Source of the DNA: Pelagerythrobacter marensis
GTDB lineage: Bacteria > Pseudomonadota > Alphaproteobacteria > Sphingomonadales > Sphingomonadaceae
Direction of reading: 5' to 3'
NCBI RefSeq assembly: GCF_036700095.1
Contig: NZ_CP144918.1
Coordinates: 1,055,001-1,119,000 of the forward strand
DNA length: 64,000 nt
The notes beneath the pieces were generated by a model. The model saw only the letters and a program-made list of their open reading frames with translations, was not told the origin of the DNA and did not search any database. The translations under genes were made by a program, and so were the position numbers. Below are positions 20,401 through 40,592 of the stretch, piece by piece (within the stretch, counting starts at the first letter, position 1; each line of letters begins with the position of its first letter).

Positions 20401-21054
20401 AACGAGGGTTGCCTCAGACCGCTCAAGCTCATCGTTCCCCCCGGGTCGTTTCTCGCGCCAGAGCCTGGTGCGGCGGTCGTCGCGGGCAACACCGAAGTGA
20501 GCCAGGCGGCGTGCGACGCCTTGCTGGGCGCACTCGGGGCGGCGGCGGGTTCTCAGGGAACGATGAACAACTTTCTGTTCGGCAACGGCAGGTACCAGTA
20601 CTACGAAACGATCTGCGGCGGGGCAGGCGCGGGCCCCGGCTTCCACGGCGCGAGCTGTGTGCATACGCATATGACGAACACCCGGATCACCGATCCGGAG
20701 ATCCTCGAGGTGCGATACCCGGTCCTGCTTGAAACCTTCGCTATCCGTCGATCCTCGGGGGGAGACGGCGCATGGCGCGGCGGAGCAGGGGCCAGGCGCG
20801 CGATCAGGGCGCGCGAGGCCATGTCGGCGACATTGATCAGTTCGCGCCGCACGCGGCCGCCGATCGGACTTGCGGGCGGTAGTCCGGGGGCTGTCGGCCG
20901 GCAGTGGGTGGAACGCGCTGACGGGACGATCGACATCTTGCCCGGACATGCCGAAGTCGAGCTGCAGGCCGGCGACCTGATCGTTATCGAAACGCCCGGG
21001 GGCGGCGGCTTCGGCGAACCGGCAAAGCGCTTGGCTGAAAGGTCGAATCGATAG
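17452..21054 (+). CDS. Fused hydantoinase A/B, 5-oxoprolinase-like ATP-dependent amidohydrolase
   Basis: This 1200-residue protein joins a HyuA domain (about 1-680) to a HyuB domain (about 685-1195). HyuA shows the actin-like ATPase loops [16 protein letters not shown] at the N-terminus and [14 protein letters not shown] near residue 280. HyuB shows [32 protein letters not shown] and [16 protein letters not shown]. Fused proteins of this layout include 5-oxoprolinase (OPLAH), which opens 5-oxoproline to glutamate with ATP, but hydantoins or other cyclic imides are possible substrates. It stands alone between an IS/mannonate dehydratase scar and tRNA-Gly. No partner regulator or transporter is visible. 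Confidence 0.9.
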
Positions 21055-23528: not shown

Positions 23529-25217
23529 CTATCGGGAGGCGCAGTCGACGGCTTTCCACTGGTAGGCTTGCACGGTTTCGCCGCGCGGCAGGTATTCGAT
23601 TTCGAACTGCCGGCCGTTTCTCTCGACGACCAGGCGCAGTCTGGCCTCTTGATCGCCCTGCATTGCGTCCTGCGGAAACCGGTTCACGATCCGGTCGCCG
23701 TTGCGCAGGCCGGCCTTTGCGGCCTGTGAGTCCGGCTTGAGGCCGGAAACGATCCGCTCCGGGGCGACGAGCACGGCCGGATCGAAGCCGAGATCGAAGC
23801 GCCGCATGGGCTTTGTCACGCGCGTGAAGCAGGGGCCGAACGCGGCCGGAGACGGCAGGACCGTCGCGCCGGCCAGCATGGCCTCGAAATCCGCCAGCCC
23901 TTGCTCGCCGAGTTCGGCGAACAGGAGCCGTTCCCACAATGCGCGGTCCATCGGCCGGCCCGCCCGACGCTCGGCCAGCATTGTGCGCACGATATCGTCG
24001 AGACTGCGCTCGCCATCCGAAGCGGCGCGAATCTGCTCGTCGACCGTCGCGAAATAGAGCGAGCCACGATCGTAAGGCAGGACCCGAATGCGCGTATCGC
24101 GCCAGAATCCCTCGGGGATGCGGTCGTTGGGCGTGCCGATCAGCGCATTGGTGTAATAGCGCCCCGCCGTTTCGTTCAGATCGGCAAGAAACGCTTCGTC
24201 GTCGATCAGCCCGGCGCGCCACGGCAGCAGCCGTTGGTAATGCACTGCCAGCCCTTCGCCGAACCAGGATGACGCGAGCCCGTTCGCCGCATCCATGCTA
24301 TCGCCCAGCGATCGCACCCAAGCGTGCAGCATCTCGTGCGCGAGCAGGCCTTTCAAGTCGTCCGCCGAAACGTTCGCGTCGAAAGTGAACGCGAAACTGT
24401 CGGTCAGCCCGATGCCGCTGCCGGGGTTGAGCGCATTGGTACGGGCGAAGACCCCGAAGTTTTCCGGCTTGTGGCGAAAGAAGCGTCCGTAGAAGTCGTG
24501 CAGCCGCGCAGCCCATGCCATCAGGTCCTGCCCGGGGAACGACAGCGTGCCCTGCCAGGCTGCGAAAAAGCCCGGGGAGCGATAGAGCCCCGGTCGGCCG
24601 GCCATGTAGTAAGTGGAGGCGATCTCGACAGGCCGCAGCGGACGGTCGGACCGGGCGTCGCCCACGCCGAGGCTGGAGACCGCGACGGCGCCTTCCGGCA
24701 ATGCGGCAAGGTCCCACTCGATGGCGACCTCGCGCGCGAGATCGTCGTCGGGCAGCAGCAGGAATGCCGTCCCCGCGCCCGACACCCCCTGCGGTCCAGT
24801 GCGCAGCTCGTACTGGGGGAGGGCCAGGAACGGCCGGTCCGGGTCGATTTCCAGAGTGTAGCGCACCGTGACCGCGCCATCGGCCGGGCGCGCCATATCC
24901 CAGTAGCGAACGGCATTCGATCCGTCCGCCCGCTCGTCTCGCGTCTTGGCGGTCAGCGGCCCGCGCCGATCGGCGAACGATAGCCCGGCAATGTCCCGGG
25001 CCGAGGTTTCGACGTTGTTGGCGACAAGCGGCAGGCGGTAGGTTGCCGGCGCCGCAGTCACGGTCATCGCGATATCGAGCGTTTCGATCGTTCCGTCGCC
25101 GTCGCGATCGTGCGGAGCAAGAACGATGTCGAGCGTCTTCTGCGTCTCCTCCGCAGCGGCAGGGGCGGCGATAGCGAGCGCGGCGAGCAGGGCGGCGGTG
25201 CGGGATAGGAAAGTCAT
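23529..25217 (-). CDS. M61-type metallopeptidase with C-terminal PDZ-like domain, secreted
   Basis: The 562-residue protein has a Sec signal (about residues 1-22, ending APAAAEE), a beta-sandwich N-terminal region, and the zinc motif HEMLH at about residue 294 (LLAHEMLHAWVRSLGD), with the third ligand Glu likely in SSWFGEGLAVHYQ. This is the layout of the glycyl-aminopeptidase M61 family. The C-terminal part (GLKPDSQAAKAGLRNGDRIV) looks like a PDZ domain. It probably trims peptides or damaged proteins in the periplasm. It faces the Lrp gene across 90 bp and may belong with the peptide locus to its right, although it is read in the opposite direction to the nearest catabolic genes. Confidence 0.85.
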   Translation of the reverse strand: MTFLSRTAALLAALAIAAPAAAEETQKTLDIVLAPHDRDGDGTIETLDIAMTVTAAPATYRLPLVANNVETSARDIAGLSFADRRGPLTAKTRDERADGSNAVRYWDMARPADGAVTVRYTLEIDPDRPFLALPQYELRTGPQGVSGAGTAFLLLPDDDLAREVAIEWDLAALPEGAVAVSSLGVGDARSDRPLRPVEIASTYYMAGRPGLYRSPGFFAAWQGTLSFPGQDLMAWAARLHDFYGRFFRHKPENFGVFARTNALNPGSGIGLTDSFAFTFDANVSADDLKGLLAHEMLHAWVRSLGDSMDAANGLASSWFGEGLAVHYQRLLPWRAGLIDDEAFLADLNETAGRYYTNALIGTPNDRIPEGFWRDTRIRVLPYDRGSLYFATVDEQIRAASDGERSLDDIVRTMLAERRAGRPMDRALWERLLFAELGEQGLADFEAMLAGATVLPSPAAFGPCFTRVTKPMRRFDLGFDPAVLVAPERIVSGLKPDSQAAKAGLRNGDRIVNRFPQDAMQGDQEARLRLVVERNGRQFEIEYLPRGETVQAYQWKAVDCASR

Positions 25218-25307
25218 GACGGGCAGCGTACAGCGCCGGCGCCCGCAAAGCCTATGCGAAGGCCCGTCCCCGGCCGGCGGAGAAGCATAATTGATGCGAT
25301 GTCCACC

Positions 25308-25781
25308 TCAGTTCGAGGGGAGCGGTATGCGATGGGTGCACTTGAGTTCGGACAGCGTGGCAGTCGAGCGAACATCCTCGACCCCAGGCAGCCGCAACAG
25401 GCGGCGGAACGTGAAATTCTGGTACCAGGCGATATTGGGGGCGAGAACTTTGAGGATCACGTCCATTTCGCCGAACAGGGTATAGGCCTCGGTCACCTCG
25501 TCGATATCCTGCAGTGCGCTGACGAAGCGTTCGCGCTGGTCGTCGCTCAGGCGCGACATCTTGAGCTGGGCGAAGATATACATGCTTTCGCCGAACTTCT
25601 CGCGATCGAGAATTGCGACCTGTCGCTTGACGTACCCCTCTTCCTTCAACCGCTGAATTCGCCGCCAGCACGGCGATTGCGAAAGTCCCACATGCTCGGC
25701 AATCGCGCTGGAGGATTCGCCCGCATCGATTTGCAGCCTGTCCAGAATTTTGAGATCGAGACGATCGAGATCGTTGGACAT
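25308..25781 (-). CDS. Lrp/AsnC-family transcriptional regulator
   Basis: The 157-residue protein starts MSNDLDRLDLKILDRLQIDA and has the Lrp helix-turn-helix (SSSAIAEHVGLSQSPCWRRI, about residues 23-42) followed by RLKEEGYVKRQVAILD and a RAM ligand-binding domain with FGEMDVILKVLAPN. Lrp-type proteins sense amino acids and often control a neighbouring permease or catabolic enzyme. It is divergent from the ornithine cyclodeaminase-family gene (144 bp gap), which is the most likely target, along with other genes of the peptide locus. Confidence 0.92.
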   Translation of the reverse strand: MSNDLDRLDLKILDRLQIDAGESSSAIAEHVGLSQSPCWRRIQRLKEEGYVKRQVAILDREKFGESMYIFAQLKMSRLSDDQRERFVSALQDIDEVTEAYTLFGEMDVILKVLAPNIAWYQNFTFRRLLRLPGVEDVRSTATLSELKCTHRIPLPSN

Positions 25782-25924
25782 ATTATGCTCCCAAGGCCTT
25801 CGGCGGCGATAAACGATGCCGCGATCTACGTCTTTACGCCATGAAAAACAATTCTCTGCAGTCGGCGTCGGTTAATCTCAACCGTATTCGGCATGATTTG
25901 CGGCAGCGATCGACGAGGAACGGG

Positions 25925-26881
25925 ATGCAGAAATCAGAACTGGCGATTTTCGACAGCAAATATGTCCGCAAGCATCTCGATTACCGTTCCTGCATCCGGG
26001 TCGTTCGGGAGGCGATGGCCGCCTTGTCCGAGGGGCGCACCAGGCAGTTGCTGCGGACCATGTTCCAGATGGGCGAAGGCCGCACGTTCGCGCAGATGCC
26101 CGGCGCGCTCGGCGACAGCGATATGTTCGGGGCGAAAATGATCAGCGTCTTTCCCGATCCCGCCAACCCGGGCTCGCGCAGGCACCGGGGCGTGATCGCA
26201 ATGTTCGAACCGGAGGAAGGGAAACCGGTTTGCATCGTCGATGCGGAAGAGGTCACGCATATTCGCACTGCCGCCGCCACGGCCATGGCGACCGACATCC
26301 TCGCCCGGCGCGATGCCCGGCGGCTGTTGATAATGGGCACCGGCGGGCAGGCGCGAACGCATCTGCGCGCCTTGCCACTGGTGCGCAATTTCGACCGGAT
26401 CGCGATCTGGGGGCGGGACCCGGCCAAAGCGCGCAAGCTGGTCGGCGAGTTTTCCGGCGCGCTCCCGGTCAAACCGGCCGGGGACATTGCGGCTGAGGCG
26501 GCAAATGCCGATGTCATCTGCACTTTGACGGGTGCCAGCGAGCCGATTCTGCACGGCCGCTGGCTGCGCCCGGGGTGCCATGTGAATATCGTCGGTTCCA
26601 GCGGGCCGGGCCCGGTGGAAGTGGACAGCGACCTGGTTGTCCGGTCGCGCTATTTCGCCGACAGCCGGGCCTCGGCGCTGGACGCGGCGGCCGAATTCCT
26701 CGTGGCGCGGGAGGAAGGGCTGGTTACCGACGACCATATCGTGGCCGAGATCGGCGAAGTCGTGCTCGGCAAGCGAAACGGTCGCCAGGCGGACGACGAA
26801 ATCACGGCCTACAAGTCGCTGGGCCACGCGGTGCAGGATCTCGCCGCCGCGGCCCACCTTTACAGGAGTTCCCGAGCATGA
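25925..26881 (+). CDS. Ornithine cyclodeaminase / mu-crystallin family protein
   Basis: The 318-residue product has VVREAMAALSEGRTRQLLRT, AKMISVFPDP, VCIVDAEEVTHIRTAAATAM and the Rossmann motif MGTGGQARTHLRALPLVRNF, as in ornithine cyclodeaminase, alanine dehydrogenase, ketimine reductase and delta1-pyrroline-2-carboxylate reductase. Sequence alone does not fix which. The start ATG 25925 gives the usual N-terminus (a longer frame adds 28 residues). It overlaps the amidohydrolase gene by ATGA. With a prolidase-like amidohydrolase next door, a role in cyclic imino-acid (proline or hydroxyproline type) metabolism is a reasonable guess. Confidence 0.86.
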   Translation: MQKSELAIFDSKYVRKHLDYRSCIRVVREAMAALSEGRTRQLLRTMFQMGEGRTFAQMPGALGDSDMFGAKMISVFPDPANPGSRRHRGVIAMFEPEEGKPVCIVDAEEVTHIRTAAATAMATDILARRDARRLLIMGTGGQARTHLRALPLVRNFDRIAIWGRDPAKARKLVGEFSGALPVKPAGDIAAEAANADVICTLTGASEPILHGRWLRPGCHVNIVGSSGPGPVEVDSDLVVRSRYFADSRASALDAAAEFLVAREEGLVTDDHIVAEIGEVVLGKRNGRQADDEITAYKSLGHAVQDLAAAAHLYRSSRA

Positions 26882-28902
26882 GCCGACCCCGCTGCCTTCG
26901 CGCTGCACTCATTCTGGCCATGATGGCCGGCGCTTCGACGGCCGCGATCGCGGAAACCGAGCGCTACTCGGTCGTCGCCAACGGCGAAAAGGTCGGCTTC
27001 CTGGTGGCCGAGACCGAGGGCGAGCGGGTCGAGGTCACCTACGATGTAAAGAACAACGGCCGCGGGCCGACCATGCGCGAGACGATCGTTCTCGACGACA
27101 GCGGCCTGCCGCTGCGCTGGCATCTGGAGGGCACGTCCACCTTCGAGAACGCGATCGACGAGACGTTCCGGCGCGAAGGGGATGGGGCCAGGTGGACCGA
27201 TTCGACCGGCAGCGGTTCGGCCGAAGTGGCAGGCCCCGCGATCTACGTTGCGCAAGAAGGCAGTCCGTGGGCTCTCGGGCTCTATGCCCGGGCGCTGCTT
27301 GCCGATGAGGATCGCACGATCCCGGCGCTTCCCGGCGGGACGTTGAGCCTCAGCGAAGGGGCCCCGGTGACGCTGGGCGAGCGGAGCTTCCGCGCGGTTT
27401 CGATCCACGGCATCGGCCTTTCGCCCGATACCGTCCTGCTCGATGCCGACGGCGCCCTGTTCGCGCGCATATCGCCCGGTTCGGTCACCGTGCGCGAGGG
27501 GTTCGAAGACCATGCGGACGAACTTTCGGAGATTGCCGCGCGCCGGGGGGCGGAACGGTTCGCGCAGATCCAGGAGCGGGTCGCGCACGATTTCGACGGT
27601 CCGGTGCGCCTGCACAACGTGCGGATCTTCGACCCGGCCAGCGGAACGATCGGCGATCCCGTGTCGCTGGTGTTCCACGGCGAAGAGATCGCGGCCATCG
27701 AGCCGCTCGACAGTCCCCCGACGCCCGGCGAAGTGCTGGTCGACGGCGCCGGGCGCACCGTTCTGCCCGGCCTGCACGACATGCATGCCCATGTCTCGCT
27801 GCAATCGGCGCTACTCTATATCGCTTCCGGCGTCACCTCGGTGCGCGACATGGGCAACGACAATGCCTTCCTTCTCGACCTGACCGGCCGTATCGCGCGG
27901 GGCGAAGTGGCCGGCCCGCGGATCGTGCGCAACGGGTTCCTCGAAGGGCGCAGCGAGTATTCGTCGCGCAATGGCTTCATCGTCGACAGCGCGCAGGAAG
28001 CGCGCGAGGCGGTGCGCTGGTACGCCGCCCGCGGATACTGGCAGATCAAGATCTACAACAGCATGAACCCGGACTGGGTCGGCGACATAGCGGACGAGGC
28101 GCACAAGCACGGGCTGGGGATCACCGGACATGTCCCGGCGTTCACCAATGCCGACGCGATGATCGCCGGCGGCTACGACGAACTGACCCATATCAACCAG
28201 CTCATGCTCGGCTGGGTTCTCGAGCCGGGTGAGGACACGCGCACTCTCCTGCGCCTCACGGCGATGAAGCGCACGGCCGGGCTGGACCTGTCGGCGCCGC
28301 GCGTGCGCGCCACGCTCGATACCATGCAGGCCGGCGGGATCGCGATCGATCCGACCGCCGTCACGCTGGAACTGCTGATGCTCAGCCGCGACGGGACGAT
28401 CAGCCCGGCGGTGGCCAGCTATTTCGACCACTTGCCGATCGGCCTTCAGCGCCGGCGGCGTCAGGGTATCGCGAAGATCGAGAACGCGGCCGACGATGCC
28501 GCCTATCTCGGCGCGTTCGACAGCATCAAGCGCCTGCTGGCCGAGATGCACGGTCGCGGGATCAGGATCCTGCCCGGCACCGACGACGCCACCGGCCTTT
28601 CGGTCCATCGCGAGCTGCAGATCTATGCCGAGGCCGGGATTGCGCCGGCGGACGTGCTGCACATGGCGACGCTGGGGCCGGAGCAGTATCTCGGACGGGA
28701 TCAGCGGCTCGGCTCGATAGCGAAAGGCAAGCTGGCCGATTTCATCCTCGTCGATGGCAACCCGCTCGACGACATGGCCGCCCTTCATCGCATCGCGATG
28801 GTCGTGAAAGGGGGAACGGTCTATTTCCCCGAGGAGATCTGGAAGGAAGTGGGCGTCCGGCCGTTCGCGGCGGCGCCCGCCGTTACCCTCCCGGCGGAGT
28901 GA
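26878..28902 (+). CDS. Exported amidohydrolase, imidazolonepropionase/prolidase-like
   Basis: The 674-residue protein has a signal peptide (about residues 1-25, ending TAAIAET), a unique N-terminal domain of about 240 residues and an amidohydrolase TIM barrel. Metal ligands are visible as LHDMHAHVS (HxH, about residue 300), the likely carboxylated Lys in YWQIKIYNSM, His in GITGHVPAF and in ELTHIN, and Asp in LPGTDDATG; the C-terminal GSIAKGKLADFILVDGNPL is typical. Relatives hydrolyse Xaa-Pro or N-acyl amino acids in the periplasm. The long N-terminal extension is not one I recognise. It overlaps the cyclodeaminase-family gene by 4 bp, so the two should be made together. Confidence 0.88.
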   Translation: MSRPRCLRAALILAMMAGASTAAIAETERYSVVANGEKVGFLVAETEGERVEVTYDVKNNGRGPTMRETIVLDDSGLPLRWHLEGTSTFENAIDETFRREGDGARWTDSTGSGSAEVAGPAIYVAQEGSPWALGLYARALLADEDRTIPALPGGTLSLSEGAPVTLGERSFRAVSIHGIGLSPDTVLLDADGALFARISPGSVTVREGFEDHADELSEIAARRGAERFAQIQERVAHDFDGPVRLHNVRIFDPASGTIGDPVSLVFHGEEIAAIEPLDSPPTPGEVLVDGAGRTVLPGLHDMHAHVSLQSALLYIASGVTSVRDMGNDNAFLLDLTGRIARGEVAGPRIVRNGFLEGRSEYSSRNGFIVDSAQEAREAVRWYAARGYWQIKIYNSMNPDWVGDIADEAHKHGLGITGHVPAFTNADAMIAGGYDELTHINQLMLGWVLEPGEDTRTLLRLTAMKRTAGLDLSAPRVRATLDTMQAGGIAIDPTAVTLELLMLSRDGTISPAVASYFDHLPIGLQRRRRQGIAKIENAADDAAYLGAFDSIKRLLAEMHGRGIRILPGTDDATGLSVHRELQIYAEAGIAPADVLHMATLGPEQYLGRDQRLGSIAKGKLADFILVDGNPLDDMAALHRIAMVVKGGTVYFPEEIWKEVGVRPFAAAPAVTLPAE

Positions 28903-28941
28903 GGCAGTGCCGGCGCCGTTTCGGTCTTGCCGGGAAGGGCG

Positions 28942-30240
28942 CTAGCGCCGGTTGACGCGGCGCGGGAAGTACCATGCCGCGCCGACCAGCCCCCATACCG
29001 CGAGCAGCGCGTAGGGGCGCCAGTCGGCTTCGAGACCGGTGAAAATCAGCGCACCCGCACAGATCGCGCCCGCGTTGCCGAGCGCGATGACCGCGCCGCG
29101 GCGAGGGCGGAAAGCGGCCGCGGCGTGAATATCGGGATGCAGGCGGGCGACTTTGGCGGCGACAAGGCAGATGCTCCCGTATTTCACCAGGTTGGGGATA
29201 TTGACCGCCAGGAACAGGAACGTCAGTTCCATCGGCAGCAGGAGACCGGCGCATCCCAGCGCGAACACCGATAGCAGCGCGATATAGGGCACGTGCCAGC
29301 GCGGATGGACCCGCGCGAGCGCACGGGGCAGGACGCCGGCTTCCCCCATCGCCATCAGGCTGCGGCTGAAGAGGGTGAAGATCGCGTTGAGGCTGGTTCC
29401 GATCGCGACCACCGCGGCAAGCACGACCAGCGGCCGCGCGGCCGGTCCCATGAACCGCTCCGCCGCTTCCAGTATCGGCGCTTCGCTGGTGGCCAGGGCG
29501 TCCCAGCCCATCACACCCACGGCGACGAAGGCCACTGCCAGATAGAGGATCGTGGCCGAGCCGATCGACAAGGCGATGCCGAGCGGGATGCTGCGCCGGC
29601 TCTCGCGGACTTCGGCCCCGGCTTCGGTCGCCGCTTCGATGCCGAAGAACAGGCCCATCAGCAAAGGCGCAGCGGCGAGGACACCGGATATGCCCTGCGG
29701 GAAGAAGGGTGTCAGGTGCACCGTCTCGACCGTGCCCGCACCCCATGCCACGAAGACCGCGAACAGCAGCACGAGCATGCCGATCATGATCGTCTGGCTG
29801 CGCGCCGCGGTTCGCACGCCGAAAAGGTTGGCGATCAGCGCGAGCAGGAGAAAGCCGAACATCGCCGGCTTGGTCGGCAGGGGAACGATCATCGAGATAT
29901 AGCGCGTCAGGACGAGCGCGAGCACGACCATCGCCCCCATGTTCGCGACGATCCGCATCCAGGCGATGAAGAAGCCGAGCGCGGGGTGCAGGAAGCGCGA
30001 CGGCCAGACGAACGAGGCACCCGATACCGGCAACGCCGAGCCGAGGAAGGCGTAGCTGACCGCGATCAGGTACATCGGCAGGGCCGCGACCAGCACGGAC
30101 AGCAGCATGCCCGGGCCCGCCAGCCCCGAGGCGGGCGAAACCGCCGAGAATATCGAAACGCCGACCGCAGTGCCGAGCCCCAGCGACACCACGCCCCACA
30201 GCCCGATCCCCTGGCGCAGCCGGTTGTCGCCCCCGCTCAC
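28942..30240 (-). CDS. APC-superfamily amino acid permease
   Basis: The 432-residue membrane protein has about 12 hydrophobic segments, with the first carrying GLWGVVSLGLGTAVGVSIFS, a form of the APC substrate-binding G-x-G motif, and AAPLLMGLFFGIEAATEAGAE in TM6. It starts with GTG at 30240, overlapping the S10 peptidase stop as GTGA; a longer frame upstream is an extension into the peptidase gene. It would carry amino acids across the inner membrane. Position after an aminotransferase and a carboxypeptidase suggests it imports products released from peptides in the periplasm. Confidence 0.9.
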   Translation of the reverse strand: MSGGDNRLRQGIGLWGVVSLGLGTAVGVSIFSAVSPASGLAGPGMLLSVLVAALPMYLIAVSYAFLGSALPVSGASFVWPSRFLHPALGFFIAWMRIVANMGAMVVLALVLTRYISMIVPLPTKPAMFGFLLLALIANLFGVRTAARSQTIMIGMLVLLFAVFVAWGAGTVETVHLTPFFPQGISGVLAAAPLLMGLFFGIEAATEAGAEVRESRRSIPLGIALSIGSATILYLAVAFVAVGVMGWDALATSEAPILEAAERFMGPAARPLVVLAAVVAIGTSLNAIFTLFSRSLMAMGEAGVLPRALARVHPRWHVPYIALLSVFALGCAGLLLPMELTFLFLAVNIPNLVKYGSICLVAAKVARLHPDIHAAAAFRPRRGAVIALGNAGAICAGALIFTGLEADWRPYALLAVWGLVGAAWYFPRRVNRR

Positions 30241-31688
30241 GGGCAGCCGTCCGCTGCGATGAACGACCGCATGTCTTCGAGAAAGGCCTCGCGCGCCGCG
30301 GCGTCGGAGTAGAACATATGCCCGGCCCCGTATTCTTCCGCGCGGTAGCGAGCCGGCGGCAGCGAGGTCTGCGCGAAAAGATAGTCCGCGGCGCCGATCG
30401 TCGTCGTCAGGTCGAAGATTCCGGTGCCTACGAAGAGGCGCAGGCACGCGTTCGAACGGGCGGCCTGTTCCACGATCTCCATGAAAGGCCAGTCCGCGAA
30501 CGGCGAATCCGCGCCGCCGTAGCGCCAGGTGCCCTCCGGCCGGGCAATCACCTTGTAAGTGCCGGCGTCCAGGTGCGGCAGGATCGTGCCCAGGTATCCG
30601 GGCATCGCAGCCGCATAGAGGTCGGACACCGCGGAAAAGGCGTCGGGCCCCACGACCGGACCGGCGTCCTCGGGCCGCGGAGCAAGATAGCGCGCATCGT
30701 ATCGGCCGATCACTTTGCCGGCATCGCGCAGCAGCTCCACCCGAAAGCGCTCCTTCGAAATCCGCAGGTCGTGCGCAAGGTAGAAGGCGGCCGAAATGCC
30801 GCTCAGCGCCTCCAGTCGGGCGGCGATCCGGTGGCGTTCCGCATCGGGCAGGGTCTCTCCCGCGAACAGGGCCGGCAGATATTCCTCATGCGCGAAACGC
30901 GCCGCTTCGTCGGCTATCGCTTGCGGGGTGCAAGGCTGGCTCGCCTTGCCATGATAGCAGGCGATCGCCGCCAGCGAAGGCAGCGAGACGACGTAGCTTA
31001 TGATATTGTCGGGCCGCTGCGAGGTCTCGATCATGTTGAGCGCTTGCCCGAGCAGGACGACGCCGCGGATCGAAGGCGCGCTCTCGAGCGCGGCGAAAGC
31101 GTCGAGCATCGCCACCGCGCGGATCGTGCCGTAGCTCTCACCCAGAATATAGACCGGCGCGTCGCTCCGCCCGTTCGCGGCAAGCCAGGCGTCGACGGCT
31201 TGCGCGACCGCTCGCGCATCGCCCGATACGCTGTTGTAGACCTCCGCATCCGCCCCCTCGCGCGAGGAGAAGCCGGTGCCGGGCGGGTCGAGAAACACGA
31301 TATCGGCGATGTCCAGCAGGTTGCCGGTGTTGGCCGCGACCGGCGCCCTGGCGGGCAGGTGCGCCGTGGGGTCCTGCGGAACCTCGAGTCTGGCGGGGCC
31401 GAGCACGCCGAGATGGAGGAACGTCGAAGATGCGCCAGGCCCGCCGTTGAACGCGAACAGGACCGGCCGGTTCGCATCGTCCGCCGCGGTGTAGGCGATG
31501 TAGCCGACGCTGGCATCGGGGACGTCGCCGTTGCTCGAGACCGCTATCGTGTCGGCCTCGATCGCAATCCCCGGTGGGATCGCCGGTTCCGCCTGGCTCT
31601 GCGCCGGGACGAGCGTCGCCGCGGCAAAGGCCAGGATACGGGCCGCTCCGCGCAGGTTCTTCAGCCTTCCGGCGACGGTTCGCATCAT
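30237..31688 (-). CDS. S10 serine carboxypeptidase, secreted (copy 1)
   Basis: The 483-residue protein has a signal peptide (about residues 1-33, ending PAQSQAE) and the S10 serine carboxypeptidase signatures: VLFAFNGGPGASSTFLHLG, VFLDPPGTGFSSREG, GESYGTIRA with nucleophile Ser at about residue 185, GTGIFDLTT with the Asp, and EYGAGHMFYSD with the His. S10 enzymes remove C-terminal residues and work well at acidic pH, some at proline. It starts ATG 31688 (a second ATG follows at once), overlapping the aminotransferase stop (ATGA), and is followed by the permease with a GTGA overlap. This three-gene run is one operon. Confidence 0.9.
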   Translation of the reverse strand: MMRTVAGRLKNLRGAARILAFAAATLVPAQSQAEPAIPPGIAIEADTIAVSSNGDVPDASVGYIAYTAADDANRPVLFAFNGGPGASSTFLHLGVLGPARLEVPQDPTAHLPARAPVAANTGNLLDIADIVFLDPPGTGFSSREGADAEVYNSVSGDARAVAQAVDAWLAANGRSDAPVYILGESYGTIRAVAMLDAFAALESAPSIRGVVLLGQALNMIETSQRPDNIISYVVSLPSLAAIACYHGKASQPCTPQAIADEAARFAHEEYLPALFAGETLPDAERHRIAARLEALSGISAAFYLAHDLRISKERFRVELLRDAGKVIGRYDARYLAPRPEDAGPVVGPDAFSAVSDLYAAAMPGYLGTILPHLDAGTYKVIARPEGTWRYGGADSPFADWPFMEIVEQAARSNACLRLFVGTGIFDLTTTIGAADYLFAQTSLPPARYRAEEYGAGHMFYSDAAAREAFLEDMRSFIAADGCP

Positions 31689-32875
31689 CGTTGCTTCATC
31701 CTGGTTTCGCCGGCCCGCGTTCGCGCATCGCGATAGCTGTGCATTGCCTCGGTCATCACTTCCAGCCCCAGTTCGAGGCGGGCAGCGTCGATTCCGAAAC
31801 CCAGACGGACGTGACCGGGCGCGCCGAAATACTCGCCGGGTGCGACGATAACGCCGCGCTCCTCGGCGAGCCATTCGGAAAACGTCCCGGTATCCTCGAT
31901 CCCGACCAGCCGGGGAAAGGCGATGCACCCGTGTTCGGGCAGTTCGCCTTCCACCAGCCCTTCGGCCAGCCAGCGCGCGTGATAGGCGTCGATAAACGGC
32001 CGGGCGCCTGAAACGATCGCCGCGGTCCGCTCGCGATAGGCATCCGGGTCCTCGAGAATCCGCGCCGCAATGGCGTGCGAGAGCTTGGAGATCGCAAATT
32101 CGACCTCGCGGTTGAGCGCGCGCACCGGTTCCATCACTTTCGCGTCCGCCACGATCCATCCGCAGCGAAGCGTGCTGAGACCATAGATTTTGGTGAGACT
32201 GTTGATCGAAATGATCCGCGGGGAAATGCCCAGGGTGACCGCCGGCTTCGCCGCATCGCCCGCGTAGGGAGCATAGACTTCGTCGACGACGAGATAGACC
32301 TCGTGCCGGTCGGCAATCTCGCCCAGGGCTCGCAGCACGTCTTCCGATACCATGAAACCCGAGGGATTGTGCAGGTTGGAAATCACGATCAGCCGCGTGT
32401 CCGGGCCGATTGCCCGCTCGACCGTTTCCGGATCGATCGCGAAGCGCGGCCCCGAACGCTCGAAAGTGTCGACGCCCAGGCCATAGGAACGCGCCAGTAT
32501 GCCGAAGAGGTCGAAACCCGGATTTTCGACCAGCAGCCGGTCTCCCGGCCTCAGCAGGGCGCGATAGAGCAGCGACAGCGCACCGGTGGCCCCGGTGGTC
32601 GAGAGCACTTGTTCCTTCGCCACGGCGTATTCGCGCGCCAGCGTCTCGATGACGTGCGGGTTCCCGCTCGCGAAGGCGCTTTCGTAATGCCTGGTGACAG
32701 CGCCGCCGAAGCTGTCGCTCACCAGCTCCGCCAGCAGTTCGAGCGGCTCGGGGACCGAGCTTTCGAACAGACTGACGAGCCTGTCGCGCTGCGGTTCCAT
32801 CCGGGCGAGCACCTGCCGAACCCACTGTGAATACGAGACCGGAGCCGGGCGGACGGAGGGGCGGGACGTCATCAA
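31685..32875 (-). CDS. Class I/II PLP-dependent aminotransferase
   Basis: The 396-residue protein has fold-type I signatures: STTGATGALSLLYRALLRPG, VISNLHNPSGF, YLVVDEVYAPYAGDA and the PLP-lysine region INSLTKIYGLSTLRCGWIVA, with Arg in HVRLGFGID for the substrate carboxylate. It has no signal peptide, so it acts in the cytoplasm and would deaminate amino acids brought in by the permease. The substrate is not clear from sequence. It starts ATG 32875, 119 bp after the TonB receptor gene, with a strong hairpin in that gap. Confidence 0.88.
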   Translation of the reverse strand: MMTSRPSVRPAPVSYSQWVRQVLARMEPQRDRLVSLFESSVPEPLELLAELVSDSFGGAVTRHYESAFASGNPHVIETLAREYAVAKEQVLSTTGATGALSLLYRALLRPGDRLLVENPGFDLFGILARSYGLGVDTFERSGPRFAIDPETVERAIGPDTRLIVISNLHNPSGFMVSEDVLRALGEIADRHEVYLVVDEVYAPYAGDAAKPAVTLGISPRIISINSLTKIYGLSTLRCGWIVADAKVMEPVRALNREVEFAISKLSHAIAARILEDPDAYRERTAAIVSGARPFIDAYHARWLAEGLVEGELPEHGCIAFPRLVGIEDTGTFSEWLAEERGVIVAPGEYFGAPGHVRLGFGIDAARLELGLEVMTEAMHSYRDARTRAGETRMKQR

Positions 32876-32947
32876 TATCTCACTTGCCGGTTGTCGCTGC
32901 CGACCGGGGACGCTTCGTTCCGGTCGTGCCTTCTTTTTTCTTTTGTC

Positions 32948-32981
32948 GGCGCGGGTTCACGCTGGTGCGTGTGCCCGCGCC
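32948..32981. other. Strong intercistronic hairpin between the TonB receptor and aminotransferase genes
   Basis: GGCGCGGG (32948-32955) pairs with CCCGCGCC (32974-32981), and inside it CACGC (32958-32962) pairs with GCGTG (32967-32971) around TGGT, making a nested stem with a small internal loop. On the minus-strand transcript no U-run follows, so it is probably an mRNA-stability or processing stem that lets the receptor be made in excess of the enzymes. Confidence 0.6.
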
Positions 32982-32994
32982 GTTTCGACGATCG

Positions 32995-35900: not shown

Positions 35901-36027
35901 CGAATGGATCGCTTTCCTGTTCCTGCGCGCTCGCGGCGGCGGGTAGCGTGGCCAGAGCGGCCAGAGCGGATGTCGCCAGGAGTGTGGTGCGAGCGCCGCC
36001 GATCCGGCTGTAGCGTTGAATGAACAT
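32995..36027 (-). CDS. TonB-dependent outer-membrane receptor
   Basis: The 1010-residue protein has a signal peptide (cut near AAASAQEQ), a TonB-box-like region ENAPIVVTGSRIRRDP, a plug domain with LGPGRTLTLVNGRRMV and VEVIQGGGAAVYGSDAIAGV, and a 22-strand barrel ending in an aromatic-rich GRRFWAGIKVRM. It belongs to the large CirA-like receptors, which import peptides, sugars or siderophores with energy from TonB. ATG 36027 is preferred over ATGATG at 36042 because GAGGA lies in front of it. Its neighbours are peptidases and amino-acid enzymes rather than iron genes, so the ligand is likely a peptide. It heads the leftward run with aminotransferase, S10 and permease. Confidence 0.93.
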   Translation of the reverse strand: MFIQRYSRIGGARTTLLATSALAALATLPAAASAQEQESDPFATAAAENAPIVVTGSRIRRDPADESAPRVVLSEEVVESRGYTSAAQALNTLTSNSPQLSQADNSGESSGSGQQFPNLFGLGPGRTLTLVNGRRMVTTSSGLGDAQVDANIIPLGLLERVEVIQGGGAAVYGSDAIAGVVNYVLKDDFEGLELDAQNGISSRGDFHTYSLRGTAGTNFADGRGNVAVDINYAKSPILRFADRPLSALGRLTVTNPENETPDDGIPSRKELLDAHFWEFNANGVLFNAPAPFTRFLTQLDGTPLQFAPDGGLMAFDPGEEVGIPFASGGDGFAYRDLVGLRTGVERLTGNMIASYELSSAVTAKAELLYARTEGEEIPQGQSRTILNAGSYAGPVIFTIDNPFLSASARNTLSAANPGFAAGAPLFLSKYFYDLTPSNSQTTETETYRGVIGLEGDFAAGWRDFYWTVSGSYARVEGSQRRWEVDNAKYNNAINAVRSGGAIVCAINADADPDNDDPACDPINPFGNGNVSQGAREYVSLQAGQDYTNEQIDFLATLGGDLVRLPGGDVQFSLAYEHRDEQVSFMPLEANRLGLFGGGTMELAQSGGYNTDEFSGELLVPIIGSGMEVPLVETLELSAAGRYVDNSIAGKEEVWDLSLRWQPVYGVTVRASRSRNFRAPTLTQLFAPSTTSLDSAGTDPCDADRISSGPNPDVRYANCLALFEANPGYGVEADGSNAGASAADRLAGFQSPAENFQRATITTGGNPDLRNEVSDTFTYGIVLQPAFIPGLTISADRVEIDLEDGLSPFTTEDFAAACYDNVNPDPEVCAAFDRIANPDGLNPGGTILKGTTTTFNAGVVKYRGEIYAIDYRFEPAGGDLGRFHVGIDATHNTLLTTSVTGETFVRTDNTYLKPTWEGRFNLDWEKGPVRVSYQAYYLDETKADSDATIENNPHPILSSNLTHSLSAQFEAGAMTFRLGVDNLTDEQPSYPQISYGDILGRRFWAGIKVRM

Positions 36028-36180
36028 GTCGATCCTCATCATTTTATTGCTGTCGTTGCCGAGTCCCCCGCGGCAACTGCCAAGACTAGGCCGGGTCGCG
36101 GCGCAAATTGTTGCAAACAGGGGTGGGGCGGCTGCGTCGTCTGCATAACTGCTCGAGGCTTAGCATCGGATAGGCATAAT

Positions 36181-37653
36181 TTAGCTCGCAAACGCGCTTC
36201 GGCGTGGATTGCCAAGGAAGGAACGGACGTCGGACCCGAATTTTTTGGCTACTGCCGGATCGTCGTACATCATGTGTCCGCCCCGATAGCAGTGGAGCCG
36301 AATTCGCGGCGCGACGTCGCGCGGAAGCGTGGCCACCGTTGCTTCGTTGGCCGCACAGCTGTTGAGCGAATCGTAAAGTCCGGCGGCCACGAAGACGCGC
36401 ATCGCCGGCATCTTCTGCAAGGCCCGCAGCGTCCATGGCCGGGAGGGGCTGGGCGGGCCTTCGCCCGCCATCGCCCGTGCCAGCGACTCTTCGGTGATCG
36501 GCGCCTGATCGTATTGCCATTGCCCGCCGACGGGAAAGGCATCCACCTCGATCCCCGCGTAGTCGCCGGCCTGATAGCCGAGCGTCCGGTTGTAGTAGCG
36601 CAGAACCGCGCTTTCCTCCTGCGGGCTGGCCGCGCGCTGGCCGGTCTTGCGCATATCGAACACGTTCAGAGTCAATCCCTCGTCGGCGAGGAGGGCCGTG
36701 CGGAAGTCGCGGGGCGAGATCCACAGCGTATCGGCGTCGACCGCGGACGGAGCGATGCCATGATACCGTGCGAGCGCCGCAACCGTCCGCTTTCGCCGGT
36801 CCGGGTCCAGCGCCGCCGGATCGGCGAGTGCCGGATGCCAGACCTCGCGCGCCCATTCTTCGGCCTCGGCGATCGCGGCGTCGACATCGGACTGGAGTTC
36901 GGGTGCCAGCCGGCCGTGCGCTGCCGCGGATGCCGTTCGGCCGGGAAGCGAAAGCGCGCGCATCAGCGCCCTGTCGCCGTAGTCGCCCAGCGGGATTCCG
37001 CCCGAGATCAGGCCGATTCCCGCCACGCTTTCGCCCCGATCCGCCAACCGTTCCGCCACCCCGGCGGCACGCCAGGTGCCGAAGCTTTCCCCGATCAGGA
37101 ACAGCGGCGAATGCGTGCGGCCGTAAGCCAGGCGGAAGCCGACGATGAAATCGGTCGTGGCGGCAATGTCGCCGACGGTGGAATAGAGCCGCTTTCTCGC
37201 TTCCGCCGATCGTGTTCGGCTGAAGCCGGTATCGGCCGGGTCGAGGAAGACCAGATCGCTGGCGTCGAGCGGGCTGGCCGCATTGTCGACCAGGGCCCCG
37301 TCTTTCAGCACCCTGGGGCCAAGGGCCTCGAAGTGAAGCAGGCGGGAGTCCGCGCCGGGCCCGCCGTTCCAGACGAAGGTCAGCGGCCGCTCGCCCGCGT
37401 CGCGCGCGCCGGGCACCAAGTATGCTGTATAGAACAGGTCGGCGAGCGGTTCGCCGTCGTCGCCGCGCACTGTCAGTGTCCCGGCGCAGGCGGCATAGTC
37501 CAGGCTCTTTCCGCCGATGACGGCGCTATGCACCGTGCGCACCGCACCTTCGGCACATGCCGGGGCCATCGCGCGTCGATCCTGCGAGGCGCTGGCGCAT
37601 CCGGCCAGCACAAGGGCCGCGCCGGCGATAAAAATGGAAAGGGTTTTCGTCAT
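36181..37653 (-). CDS. S10 serine carboxypeptidase, lipoprotein form (copy 2)
   Basis: The 490-residue protein has a lipobox LVLAGC (Cys 19), so it should be lipid-anchored in the periplasm or outer membrane. S10 features are TFVWNGGPGADSRLLHFEAL, VFLDPADTGFSRTRS (Ala replaces the usual Pro/Gly), GESFGTWRA with nucleophile Ser at about residue 190, AGLYDSLNS with the Asp, and YRGGHMMYDD with the His. It is more diverged than the two other S10 proteins of the locus, which may mean a different side-chain preference. It lies upstream of the TonB receptor gene on the same strand (about 140 bp gap) and is divergent from the class V PLP enzyme. A near-repeated 22-bp sequence flanks it at 36107 and 37801. 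Confidence 0.88.
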   Translation of the reverse strand: MTKTLSIFIAGAALVLAGCASASQDRRAMAPACAEGAVRTVHSAVIGGKSLDYAACAGTLTVRGDDGEPLADLFYTAYLVPGARDAGERPLTFVWNGGPGADSRLLHFEALGPRVLKDGALVDNAASPLDASDLVFLDPADTGFSRTRSAEARKRLYSTVGDIAATTDFIVGFRLAYGRTHSPLFLIGESFGTWRAAGVAERLADRGESVAGIGLISGGIPLGDYGDRALMRALSLPGRTASAAAHGRLAPELQSDVDAAIAEAEEWAREVWHPALADPAALDPDRRKRTVAALARYHGIAPSAVDADTLWISPRDFRTALLADEGLTLNVFDMRKTGQRAASPQEESAVLRYYNRTLGYQAGDYAGIEVDAFPVGGQWQYDQAPITEESLARAMAGEGPPSPSRPWTLRALQKMPAMRVFVAAGLYDSLNSCAANEATVATLPRDVAPRIRLHCYRGGHMMYDDPAVAKKFGSDVRSFLGNPRRSAFAS

Positions 37654-37782
37654 GCCAAGCCTCCCGCGATCGATCGTAACCCGGCGCCTCGATCAAATTT
37701 ATGCGAAAGGTTGCCCGATCCGGTGCGCCGGTCCGGCGCTGGATTCGGAGGAATCCATTTCGGCTGCAACTAGGGATTATTT

Positions 37783-39084
37783 ATGCGTGAGAGGGCCGAT
37801 ATTGTGCAAACAATGGGTGGGGATATCATTACGGCTGCACCGAAATTGTCACGCCGCGGGTTAATCGCCGGGGCCACCTGTCTTCCCGTCGCCGCCGGGC
37901 TGGCCGCCCGCTCGCGTCGCGCGGTGCCCGCAACGGCTTCGGCCGCTGCGCTGTTTGCGCCGATGGACGGGACCTACCTCGATTCCGGGACGATGCACCC
38001 GATACCGCTGGGCGCAAAGGCGTCTGTCGAGCGATATCTCGATAGCCATGCGCGGGGAGCGCGCTGGCCGAGCGGAGAGGTCGAGCGGCGCGTGAAATCC
38101 TCTTTCGCCAGGCTGGTCAATGCCGCGCCGGAGGAACTGGCTTTCGTTCAGAGCACGACTGCGGGCGAGCAGCTGGTGGTGGATGCGCTCGACATCCCCA
38201 GCAGCGGGGGCAGGATCGTGACCGACACGCTGCACTTCTTCGGCTCGTTCTGGATGTACGAGCAACTGGCCGAACGCGGGATGGATGTGGTCTGGTTGCA
38301 CCCGCAAGATGGTCGGATCGATCCCGCGGCCTACGAACGGGCGATCGACGGCAATACCCGGCTCGTCAGCCTGTCCCTGGTCTCGACCTACAACGGCTTC
38401 GAGCACGATCTTGCGCGGATCTGCGAGATTGCCCACGCGCACGGTGCGTTCGTCTATGCCGATATCATCCATGCAGCCGGCACGGTGCCGGTCGATCTGC
38501 ACGCAACCGGCGTCGATTTCGCCGCCTGCGCAAGCTACAAGTGGCTGATGGGCGATTTCGGGCTGGGTTTCCTCTATGCCCGGGCCGACCGGCTGGAACA
38601 GCTTCGCCGCACTCGCTTCGGCTATTACCAGCTCGCCCGGTTCCGATCTCACGTCTACCCTTTCGATCCGCCCGGCAGCAGTGTTGCCGACATGGCCCCG
38701 CGCAACGACGCGGAAGGGCTGTTCGCAATGGGGACCCGGTCGCATTCGGTGATGGCCCAGCTCGACTGGTCGCTTGCGGCGCTGCTCGACATCGGGGTCG
38801 ATCGGATCGCCGCCAGCCGCCAGCCGCTGCTCGCCCGCCTGCACGAGGCGCTGCCGGCCAAGGGATACCGGGTCGCGACCCCGCGCGACAGCCGGACACC
38901 GCTGCTGACCTGCGTGCTGGAGGGCGCGCACGAGCGGCTCTCCCCGGCGTTGGACCGGGCCGGAGTGCGGATCACGCTGTCGCGCAACCGCTTCCGCGTG
39001 TGTCTTTCGTTTTTCAACACTGCCGACGATGTGGAGCGGCTGATCGACGTGCTCCCCGATCTGTCACATGAGGATATGCGATGA
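37783..39084 (+). CDS. Tat-exported class V aminotransferase-fold PLP enzyme (isopenicillin N epimerase/PvdN-like)
   Basis: The 433-residue protein carries a twin-arginine signal (LSRRGLIAGATCLPVAAGLA, about residues 22-41), so it should be folded with PLP in the cytoplasm and exported. The class V fold shows FVQSTTAGEQLVVDAL, TYNGFEHDLARICEIAHAHG, FVYADIIHAAG and CASYKWLMGDFGLGFLY with the PLP Lys at residue 253. Periplasmic PLP enzymes are rare; the known example PvdN modifies a pyoverdine side chain. The start is uncertain: ATG 37783 or ATG 37813, neither with a good Shine-Dalgarno site. It overlaps the third S10 gene by ATGA, which points to a joint action on a peptide substrate. Confidence 0.85.
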   Translation: MRERADIVQTMGGDIITAAPKLSRRGLIAGATCLPVAAGLAARSRRAVPATASAAALFAPMDGTYLDSGTMHPIPLGAKASVERYLDSHARGARWPSGEVERRVKSSFARLVNAAPEELAFVQSTTAGEQLVVDALDIPSSGGRIVTDTLHFFGSFWMYEQLAERGMDVVWLHPQDGRIDPAAYERAIDGNTRLVSLSLVSTYNGFEHDLARICEIAHAHGAFVYADIIHAAGTVPVDLHATGVDFAACASYKWLMGDFGLGFLYARADRLEQLRRTRFGYYQLARFRSHVYPFDPPGSSVADMAPRNDAEGLFAMGTRSHSVMAQLDWSLAALLDIGVDRIAASRQPLLARLHEALPAKGYRVATPRDSRTPLLTCVLEGAHERLSPALDRAGVRITLSRNRFRVCLSFFNTADDVERLIDVLPDLSHEDMR

Positions 39085-40592
39085 AAACCGGCCGAAACCT
39101 GATCCTGACGCTTGCCGCCGCCTCGCTGGCGCTGGGGGCGTCCCCTTCCGCCGCGCAAGAGTTCGACCGGCCGATGCCGCCGTCGTTCCTGAAGGCGATG
39201 GAGCCGATGGTGCCCCGCGAGCGGGCGAGCGATCGGACCGTCACCACCCGGCACCGGGGTTCGTTCAACGGCAAAGCCGTGGCCTACGATGCCATCGTGA
39301 CCGAAACGCCAGTGGCCAATGCGGCGGGGGAGACCGCCGCGGTGGTCGTCACATATGCCTATGTCGCGCGGAACGCAGGCGATGCGTCCGACCGACCGGT
39401 CCTGTTCATTTTCAACGGCGGACCCGGCGCATCGTCGTCTCCGCTGCACATGCATGCATTCGGGCCGCGCGTTATCGGGTCGGACGGGAGCGGGCTTGTG
39501 AACAACGAGTACAGCCCGCTCGACGTCGCCGATCTCGTGTTCGTCGATCCGCCCGGCACCGGCGCCAGCATGCCGGTTGCGGGGGCCGACCCGTCCAGCC
39601 TCTTTTCCGTGGCCGGCGATGCCGGCGCCGTGGCCGAAGTGGTGGAGGCATGGCGCGAGGCGAACGGACGGACGGCTTCGCCTTATGCCCTCGTCGGGGA
39701 AAGCTACGGCTCGGCGCGCGCGCTGGCGATGCTCGGCGCACAGATGGAAGCCGGACTGCCGCTGCCCGACGGGGTTGGCCTGCTTTCGATGTCGATCGGC
39801 GATACCAGCGGGCCGGTGATCGCGGACGTGGTGCTCCTCCCGACACTGGCGGCGGTGGCGTGGTATCATGGAGCGGTGGCGCGTGAGGGGCGGACGGCGC
39901 GGGATGTCTACGATGCGGCGCTTCGCTTTGCGCAGGACGAATATGCCACCGCCCTGATCCGCGGCCCCTCGCTGCCCGACGGGGAAAGGCGCGCCCTCGC
40001 CGCGCGCCTGTCGGCCCTGATCGGCCTTCCGGCGGAGGTTCTGCTGGAGAACGACCTGCGGCTGGACAAGCAGGGCTTCATGCTCGGCCTCCTTGCCGAT
40101 CGGGGGCTGCGCACGGGGCAGCTGGACGCCCGGGCGACGCGCAGCATTGCCGAATCCAATTTCCAGCCGCCGTTCGACGATCCTTCGATGACGCTGGGCA
40201 CATCGACCAGCGAGACGATCGAGGCCTATCTTGCCGGAGAACTCGGCTATCCGCTTCCCAGCCCCTATCGCAGTCTCAATCTGGGCATCAATTTCAAATG
40301 GGGCTGGGGAGAGGGGACCAGCTATCGCACAGCGCGCTTCACCCCCCATCTCGCGAAAGCCATGGCGCAGAAGCCGGGGATGACCGTGTTCACTGTGGGC
40401 GGACTGTACGACATAACGACGCCGGCCTATGCGGGAATCTTCGCGCTGGACCAGGCGGGCATTCCGCTCGACCGGCGCAGCACCCATCTCTATCCCGCGG
40501 GCCATTCGGTTTTCGAAGACCCGGAGGGGCTGGCGGCGCTGTCCGCGGACATTCGCCGCTGGGCCGGGGAACTGCGGCGAACCAAACGCTGA
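39081..40592 (+). CDS. S10 serine carboxypeptidase, secreted (copy 3)
   Basis: The 503-residue protein has a Sec signal (about residues 1-25, cut near SPSAAQE) and S10 motifs VLFIFNGGPGASSSPLHMHA, VFVDPPGTGASMP, GESYGSARA with nucleophile Ser 208, GGLYDITTP with the Asp, and YPAGHSVFEDPEG with the His. Start ATG 39081 overlaps the stop of the Tat-exported PLP enzyme. This coupling suggests both work on the same periplasmic substrate. It is closer in style to copy 1 than to the lipoprotein copy 2. No gene follows on the same strand before tRNA-Leu. Confidence 0.9.
   Translation: MKTGRNLILTLAAASLALGASPSAAQEFDRPMPPSFLKAMEPMVPRERASDRTVTTRHRGSFNGKAVAYDAIVTETPVANAAGETAAVVVTYAYVARNAGDASDRPVLFIFNGGPGASSSPLHMHAFGPRVIGSDGSGLVNNEYSPLDVADLVFVDPPGTGASMPVAGADPSSLFSVAGDAGAVAEVVEAWREANGRTASPYALVGESYGSARALAMLGAQMEAGLPLPDGVGLLSMSIGDTSGPVIADVVLLPTLAAVAWYHGAVAREGRTARDVYDAALRFAQDEYATALIRGPSLPDGERRALAARLSALIGLPAEVLLENDLRLDKQGFMLGLLADRGLRTGQLDARATRSIAESNFQPPFDDPSMTLGTSTSETIEAYLAGELGYPLPSPYRSLNLGINFKWGWGEGTSYRTARFTPHLAKAMAQKPGMTVFTVGGLYDITTPAYAGIFALDQAGIPLDRRSTHLYPAGHSVFEDPEGLAALSADIRRWAGELRRTKR

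Follow-up and report, generated by a model that had tools for sequence, protein, structure and literature searches.

What would a bacterium gain from encoding a TonB-dependent receptor, several exported peptidases and two pyridoxal phosphate (PLP) enzymes side by side? We considered this question for a ~17 kb locus in the 2.91 Mb genome of the marine alphaproteobacterium Pelagerythrobacter marensis, at positions 23529-40592 of a 64 kb stretch of contig NZ_CP144918.1 that we refer to as the window. Families were assigned from an open reading frame (ORF) listing together with Pfam, and comprised M61, Lrp, OCD/mu-crystallin (hereafter OCD), amidohydrolase, APC permease, three S10 proteins (S10a, S10b and S10c), a TonB receptor and two PLP enzymes, one of class I/II (AT) and one of class V (PLPV). 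An original prediction, made from the DNA letters, had named these same families, all of which we confirmed, and had read them as a system that imports and trims an oligopeptide. Our results favor a dedicated peptide-catabolism regulon spanning uptake, periplasmic trimming, import and amino acid breakdown, to which we assign a probability of roughly 0.7.

Conservation of the gene set

Of the cytosolic members of the cluster AT is the least generic, and we therefore used it as the anchor. We scanned the AT alignment against one genome per species, with haloarchaeal AT relatives (~30% identity) excluded from the counts, and obtained 48 close loci. Gene calling on these AT-anchored loci placed S10 in 47 of the 48, the permease in 46 and the amidohydrolase in 44, followed by M61 (33), PLPV (31), OCD (30) and Lrp (29). 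Many absences coincided with the ends of contigs or of retrieved stretches. Nearly all complete loci had a TonB receptor, belonging either to a long class or to a distinct class of ~757 amino acids. The loci came from Pelagerythrobacter, Novosphingobium, Sphingomonas, Sphingopyxis, Rhizorhabdus and others, as well as from Asticcacaulis, Ponticaulis and metagenome-assembled genomes (MAGs) of Caulobacteraceae and Steroidobacteraceae, giving a spread over Sphingomonadales, Caulobacterales, Hyphomonadaceae and Steroidobacteraceae. Across the 48 loci there were 26 arrangements, some of them truncations of others, which implies that the shared content is more than a product of inherited gene order. 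The recurrence of the same families together is far beyond chance, and they form a genuine unit. Co-occurrence in other genomes, on which the original prediction had staked its reading, was thereby borne out.

Among 79 relatives, strong AT matches came from five of the six members of the genus and from a single further species. Those five genus members carried the whole cluster in unchanged order, and PLPV orthologs with at least 52% identity were found only in AT-bearing genomes. All ten families were also present in N. pokkalii in a different order, with Lrp, OCD, PLPV and the receptor located a few kilobases further on. In a larger sample, AT occurred in 20 of 398 family genomes and 11 of 96 genera, and this patchy distribution implies that it has often been lost or moved. 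An AT relative with 39% identity and no surrounding cluster (L159) marks the limit of the family.

Several loci were unusual in other respects. N. pokkalii has a second, diverged system lacking AT (L147, 821-11998; G034:C34), made up of a PLPV relative, a permease, an FCD-type regulator, OCD, a different amidohydrolase, a TonB receptor and two S10 genes. The amidohydrolase of Novosphingobium sp. ST904 lies in two frames (L042, 14031-16120) and an S10 gene of Novosphingobium sp. JCM 18896 is split (L068, 3969-5464), each reflecting a frameshift or a sequencing error.

A palindrome shared by cluster promoters

We searched for motifs in 171 promoter-containing gaps drawn from the 48 loci and the window. 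GCATAA/TTATGC was present in 80 of the 171 gaps, where shuffled sequence led us to expect 9.7; for GCAT-N5-ATGC the figures were 21 and about 1. Iterating a palindromic model converged on the consensus CGCATAAWTTATGCG at cluster promoters. Sites scoring above 11 bits numbered 3.54 per kb of cluster gap, against 0.12 for the remaining gaps and about 0.04-0.05 within coding sequence. They were positioned in the PLPV/S10b, Lrp/OCD, Lrp/M61 and Lrp/S10a gaps and, where AT or the receptor was the first gene of its unit, ahead of that gene; none of the 27 receptor/AT gaps internal to a unit had one. The four top-scoring sites of the window were all cluster sites. Genome-wide, six sites had at most two mismatches, two of which are in the cluster (25284-25298 and 37773-37787).

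Since the model was learned on cluster loci, we checked it out of sample. A model built only from the common arrangement marked 16 of 45 gaps in rearranged loci at 13 bits, as compared with 1 shuffled gap and 0 of 41 non-cluster gaps. Sites were also found in the same kind of gaps in newly retrieved cluster genomes (6 of 6), where CGCAAAATTTATGCG was found twice. The operator model from rearranged loci alone was a GC-rich artefact and was discarded, leaving the forward cross-test as the one that counts. The recognition helix of Lrp (SQSPCWRR) is identical in both cluster types. The cluster's Lrp is the obvious candidate reader of CGCATAAWTTATGCG: the sites are seen, and binding is predicted from them. 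The shared palindrome predicts co-regulation of the cluster's units, in silico, as the original prediction had expected.

Export and catalytic residues of the peptidases

Judged by eye, signal peptides place M61, the amidohydrolase and all of S10a, S10b and S10c beyond the inner membrane, with S10b appearing lipoprotein-like. Across 20 aligned cluster S10 proteins, S10c residues S208, D444, H475, E207 and N112-P115 (the NGGPG oxyanion loop) were invariant, and the catalytic triad and NGGPG of S10a were likewise invariant. The S10 matches exceed the PF00450 cut-off but cover only model positions ~24-148 of 420. In M61, the HEMLH motif at 294-298 (H294, E295 and H298) and Glu321 were invariant in 31 sequences, as were the amidohydrolase metal ligands H303, H305, K391, H418, H438 and D569 in 41 sequences. 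Relatives of the amidohydrolase include Xaa-Pro and Xaa-Arg dipeptidases, with Cc2672 (3mtw), an Arg carboxypeptidase, and 2qs8 among them. The catalytic residues are thus intact, consistent with carboxypeptidase, aminopeptidase and dipeptidase activities that together may degrade short peptides. The peptide import and trimming part of the original prediction is therefore partly supported, by co-occurrence, by the palindrome and by these intact residues.

A class V PLP enzyme in the periplasm

The N-terminus of PLPV has a twin-arginine signal (SRRGLIAG) that is kept in complete orthologs, and Lys253 is invariant. A conserved signal of this type indicates that PLPV is a periplasmic enzyme, exported folded with its cofactor. 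Fold searches with its structure model (predicted local distance difference test, pLDDT, 74) returned generic SufS-type (cysteine desulfurase) matches only. A SufS-type cysteine desulfurase function was rejected at 92 bits versus a cut-off of 475, the likeness being one of fold. PLPV matched PvdN at only 27 bits.

RidA is encoded in five cluster loci (L071, L072, L076, L081 and L158), at least three of which (L071, L072 and L076) give it an export signal, and again in a sister locus, L145. The RidA family removes reactive enamines and imines. Exported RidA beside exported PLPV makes it likely that a PLP enzyme generates an imine or enamine in the periplasm. Neither the twin-arginine export of PLPV nor the periplasmic RidA partner of other loci figured in the original prediction; both imply a chemistry that goes further than merely trimming peptides.

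PLPV relatives were also observed elsewhere. One with 44% identity (L143, 2587-10925; G074:C21) is accompanied by a permease, two class I/II aminotransferases, an APH-type kinase, an AstE/AspA deacylase and an M24 peptidase, which recalls ectoine-type catabolic sets. Two others (L144, 6772-11181; L146, 6212-10580) are flanked by a methyl-accepting chemotaxis protein and a GGDEF-EAL protein. Being located beside signalling or unrelated amino acid genes, the relatives in G065 and G074 gave no clue to the substrate.

Cytosolic enzymes

The nearest characterised relatives of AT are the arginine enzymes GntC and OrfR, along with the uncharacterised Streptococcus suis protein 3op7, and its sequence places AT in the clade of GntC, VioD, OrfR and 3op7. 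AT retains GntC Lys219, Asp186, Tyr189, Phe108, Arg346 and the guanidine-facing Thr84, which aligns with invariant AT T96 (GntC residues per PMC10367076). The invariant pair S38-S39 of AT sits 190 residues before Lys228, compared to 194 in GntC and OrfR, in a protein whose N-terminus is unaligned. We rejected an arginine cyclase function for AT on the cut-offs and residues given below. The structure model of AT (pLDDT 71), like that of PLPV, is of middling confidence.

OCD was nearest to pyrroline-2-carboxylate reductase (6t3e being the best solved relative) and mu-crystallin. True cyclodeaminases have the motif GGDCPG, with the catalytic Asp after GG. A true ornithine cyclodeaminase was rejected for OCD, which has VGSSGPGP without the Asp and scored 109 bits against PRK07589, whose cut-off is 350. 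The original assignment to the cyclodeaminase family holds at the level of the family (PF02423), but OCD is closer to cyclic imine reductases and is probably a cyclic imine (ketimine) reductase. The host genome has a single OCD gene, PutA and one further clear APC permease.

The receptor and the residue handled

A TonB receptor within the regulon would most simply be the entry gate for the peptide. In rearranged clusters L066-L070, L074, L075, L079 and L142, the shorter ~757-amino acid receptor replaces the 1015-amino acid one, which suggests receptor exchange or a different ligand. In a Caulobacteraceae MAG (L085, 14492-18878), an ECF sigma/FecR pair precedes a TonB receptor adjoining the cluster permease.

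In sister locus L145 (4571-14610; G016:C34), a TonB receptor, amidohydrolase, PLPV relative, S10, RidA and MFS transporter adjoin AstD-AstA. AstD and AstA belong to the arginine succinyltransferase pathway. A cationic, arginine-like residue is weakly favored because of the relatives of AT, the relation between the amidohydrolase and Cc2672, and the position of L145 beside AstD-AstA. The suggestion of proline or hydroxyproline in the original prediction has little in its favor: the hints are confined to a prolidase-like amidohydrolase and an imine reductase, families that also use other substrates.

Layout of the locus

The cluster consists of several transcription units on both strands and is not a single operon (Table 1). 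On the minus strand, S10b, the TonB receptor, AT, S10a and the permease are co-directional (37653 to 28942), as are Lrp and then M61 (25781 to 23529). OCD with the amidohydrolase and PLPV with S10c lie on the plus strand. The many 4-bp overlaps reported in the original prediction correspond to four gene pairs: OCD/amidohydrolase, permease/S10a, S10a/AT and PLPV/S10c. As it had also stated, no iron-related family was found by Pfam within 23529-40592. To the left of the cluster are a hydantoinase/5-oxoprolinase fusion (HyuA-HyuB, 17452-21054) and, next to it, tRNA-Gly. We rejected the fusion gene as part of the cluster, as it has no match in homologous loci.

Table 1. Genes and predicted operators of the cluster, with positions in the window.
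Feature	Position	Strand	Support and remarks
M61-family metallo-aminopeptidase, exported, PDZ-like end	23529-25217	-	PF05299 26 bits, cut-off 22; signal peptide
Predicted operator CGCAAAGCCTATGCG, M61/Lrp gap	25244-25258		13.7 bits, third-best site in window
Predicted operator AGCATAATTGATGCG, M61/Lrp gap	25284-25298		16.7 bits; among the genome's six sites with at most two mismatches
Lrp/AsnC-family regulator, predicted local regulator	25308-25781	-	PF01037/PF13412/PF13404
Predicted operator over Lrp start, Lrp/OCD divergent promoter	25775-25789		11.4 bits, fourth-best in window
OCD/mu-crystallin family protein	25841-26881	+	PF02423 8e-61; true start perhaps 25925
Amidohydrolase, exported, ~230-amino acid N-terminal extension	26878-28902	+	PF01979
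APC-family amino acid permease, inner membrane	28942-30240	-	PF13520 4e-35; TIGR00909 180 bits
S10a, exported S10 protein	30237-31688	-	PF00450 44.7 bits
AT, cytosolic fold-type I (class I/II) PLP enzyme	31685-32872	-	PF00155 6e-39
TonB-dependent receptor, 1015 amino acids	32995-36042	-	PF07715, PF00593
S10b, exported S10 protein, lipoprotein-type signal LAGC	36181-37653	-	PF00450 41 bits
Predicted operator GGGATTATTTATGCG, S10b/PLPV divergent promoter	37773-37787		17.0 bits, best in window; among the genome's six
PLPV, class V PLP enzyme, twin-arginine export	~37783-39084	+	PF00266 6e-33; start more likely GTG 37804 or ATG 37813
S10c, exported S10 protein	39081-40592	+	PF00450 41.9 bits

Proposed function and alternatives

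We consider peptide uptake and catabolism the most convincing reading of the cluster, though an unproven one. The TonB receptor would carry a short peptide or peptide-like compound across the outer membrane, and periplasmic S10, M61 and the amidohydrolase, acting as a dipeptidase, would cut it to amino acids. PLPV, periplasmic by its signal, may act there on a free alpha-amino group, with exported RidA in some genomes removing the reactive imine or enamine. The APC permease would then import the key amino acid, which AT would deaminate to a keto acid that becomes a cyclic imine. Reduction by OCD would give a proline- or pipecolate-like acid to be burned, for example by PutA. The AT/OCD pair would convert a diamino or guanidino acid to a cyclic imine and on to an imino acid, and its best-fitting substrates are cationic amino acids (Lys, Orn or Arg, for instance). 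This AT and OCD route is the least certain step, possible but on balance doubtful. Finally, Lrp would sense an amino acid and control the units via CGCATAAWTTATGCG. We also entertain, as a rather unlikely extension, that the cluster exemplifies an undescribed class of TonB-linked regulon, in which PLPV acts on peptide-derived amino acids in the periplasm, exported RidA clears the imine, and a GntC-clade enzyme completes the degradation of an unusual, arginine-like residue inside.

Several observations weigh against this reading in whole or in part. The receptor has no close relative with a known ligand, and OCD and PLPV are absent from some loci, partly at contig or stretch ends. Curated equivalog cut-offs were missed by OCD and, in NCBIfam, by PLPV; the amidohydrolase reached 91.7 bits against NF051886 (cut-off 500), and AT reached 184.9 (GntC) and 168 bits against the NCBIfam GntC/VioD/OrfR models (cut-offs 415 and 390.9). 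GntC H250 aligns with F259 in AT, and no Glu occurs in AT at the spacing of GntC E9, 16 residues before the double Ser, in its unaligned N-terminus. The arginine hint is weak, coming as it does from distant relatives and a single sister locus.

The locus might instead take up one specific peptide natural product, which it detoxifies or feeds on, with the PLP enzymes and RidA handling an odd residue such as a non-protein amino acid. A periplasmic PLP enzyme and exported RidA would be superfluous for ordinary peptides, AT groups with enzymes of odd arginine chemistry, and both the patchy distribution (20 of 398 genomes) and the swapping of two receptor classes between loci fit such a role. However, broad trimming is also a fitting role for three S10 proteins together with M61 and a dipeptidase, the loci have no conserved self-resistance or efflux gene, and regulation by Lrp typically goes with amino acid nutrition. 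We regard this alternative as unlikely.

Uptake of a siderophore or metallophore is far less probable. In such a locus the metal would be released when a peptide scaffold is hydrolysed in the periplasm, PLPV would serve for PvdN-like tailoring, and the TonB receptor and a class V periplasmic PLP enzyme do recall such systems, the latter at only 27 bits to PvdN. Yet an iron reductase, an ABC transporter and synthesis genes are all missing from the conserved set, its operator is of the Lrp type, and the catabolic enzymes sit in the cytosol. One locus, L085, does have the sigma/FecR pair noted above. It is hardly credible that the cluster represents general proteolysis, that is, functionally separate amino acid genes that are neighbors by descent. 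Inheritance could account for the exact order within the genus, but not readily for 26 arrangements of the same families in several bacterial orders, for an operator shared by rearranged loci, or for strong PLPV and AT orthologs occurring together.

Relation to known systems

Plants make pipecolate with ALD1, a class I/II aminotransferase, followed by SARD4, a ketimine reductase of the mu-crystallin/OCD family. This pairing of enzymes resembles AT with OCD as an analogy, and we do not claim orthology. Lasso-peptide isopeptidase loci of the AtxE2 type in Sphingomonadales place a TonB receptor beside a periplasmic S9-type serine hydrolase. The cluster shares with them the bacterial order and the pairing of a receptor with an adjacent periplasmic serine hydrolase, but we rejected it as such a locus because its hydrolases are all S10, with no S9-type enzyme and no lasso gene set. 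GntC, VioD and OrfR operate in a biosynthetic setting (PMC10367076), whereas that of AT is catabolic. RagAB of Porphyromonas gingivalis (cited in PMC8599685, PMC11817032) mediates TonB-dependent peptide uptake across the outer membrane, as proposed here; RagA works with the lid lipoprotein RagB, whereas the cluster has no such lid and links its receptor to S10 and PLP enzymes. An M61 aminopeptidase of Sphingomonas capsulata (Byun 2001, cited in PMC13104608) is of the same peptidase family as the cluster protein. N. capsulatum NBRC 12533 (L080) has the cluster, including an M61 gene. Among open-licence papers, we found no description of the gene set, of S10 with TonB receptors, of lasso-type loci or of PvdN-like enzymes that fits the cluster, and the exact gene set seems undescribed.

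Peptide ligands of TonB receptors are known mainly from Bacteroidota. The cluster adds a defined locus from Alphaproteobacteria that is open to testing, with its regulator, operator, importers and enzymes all predicted. It would be unusual for PLP and RidA chemistry to serve nutrition from the periplasm, and through the operator one could look for the inducer, and hence the food, without guessing.

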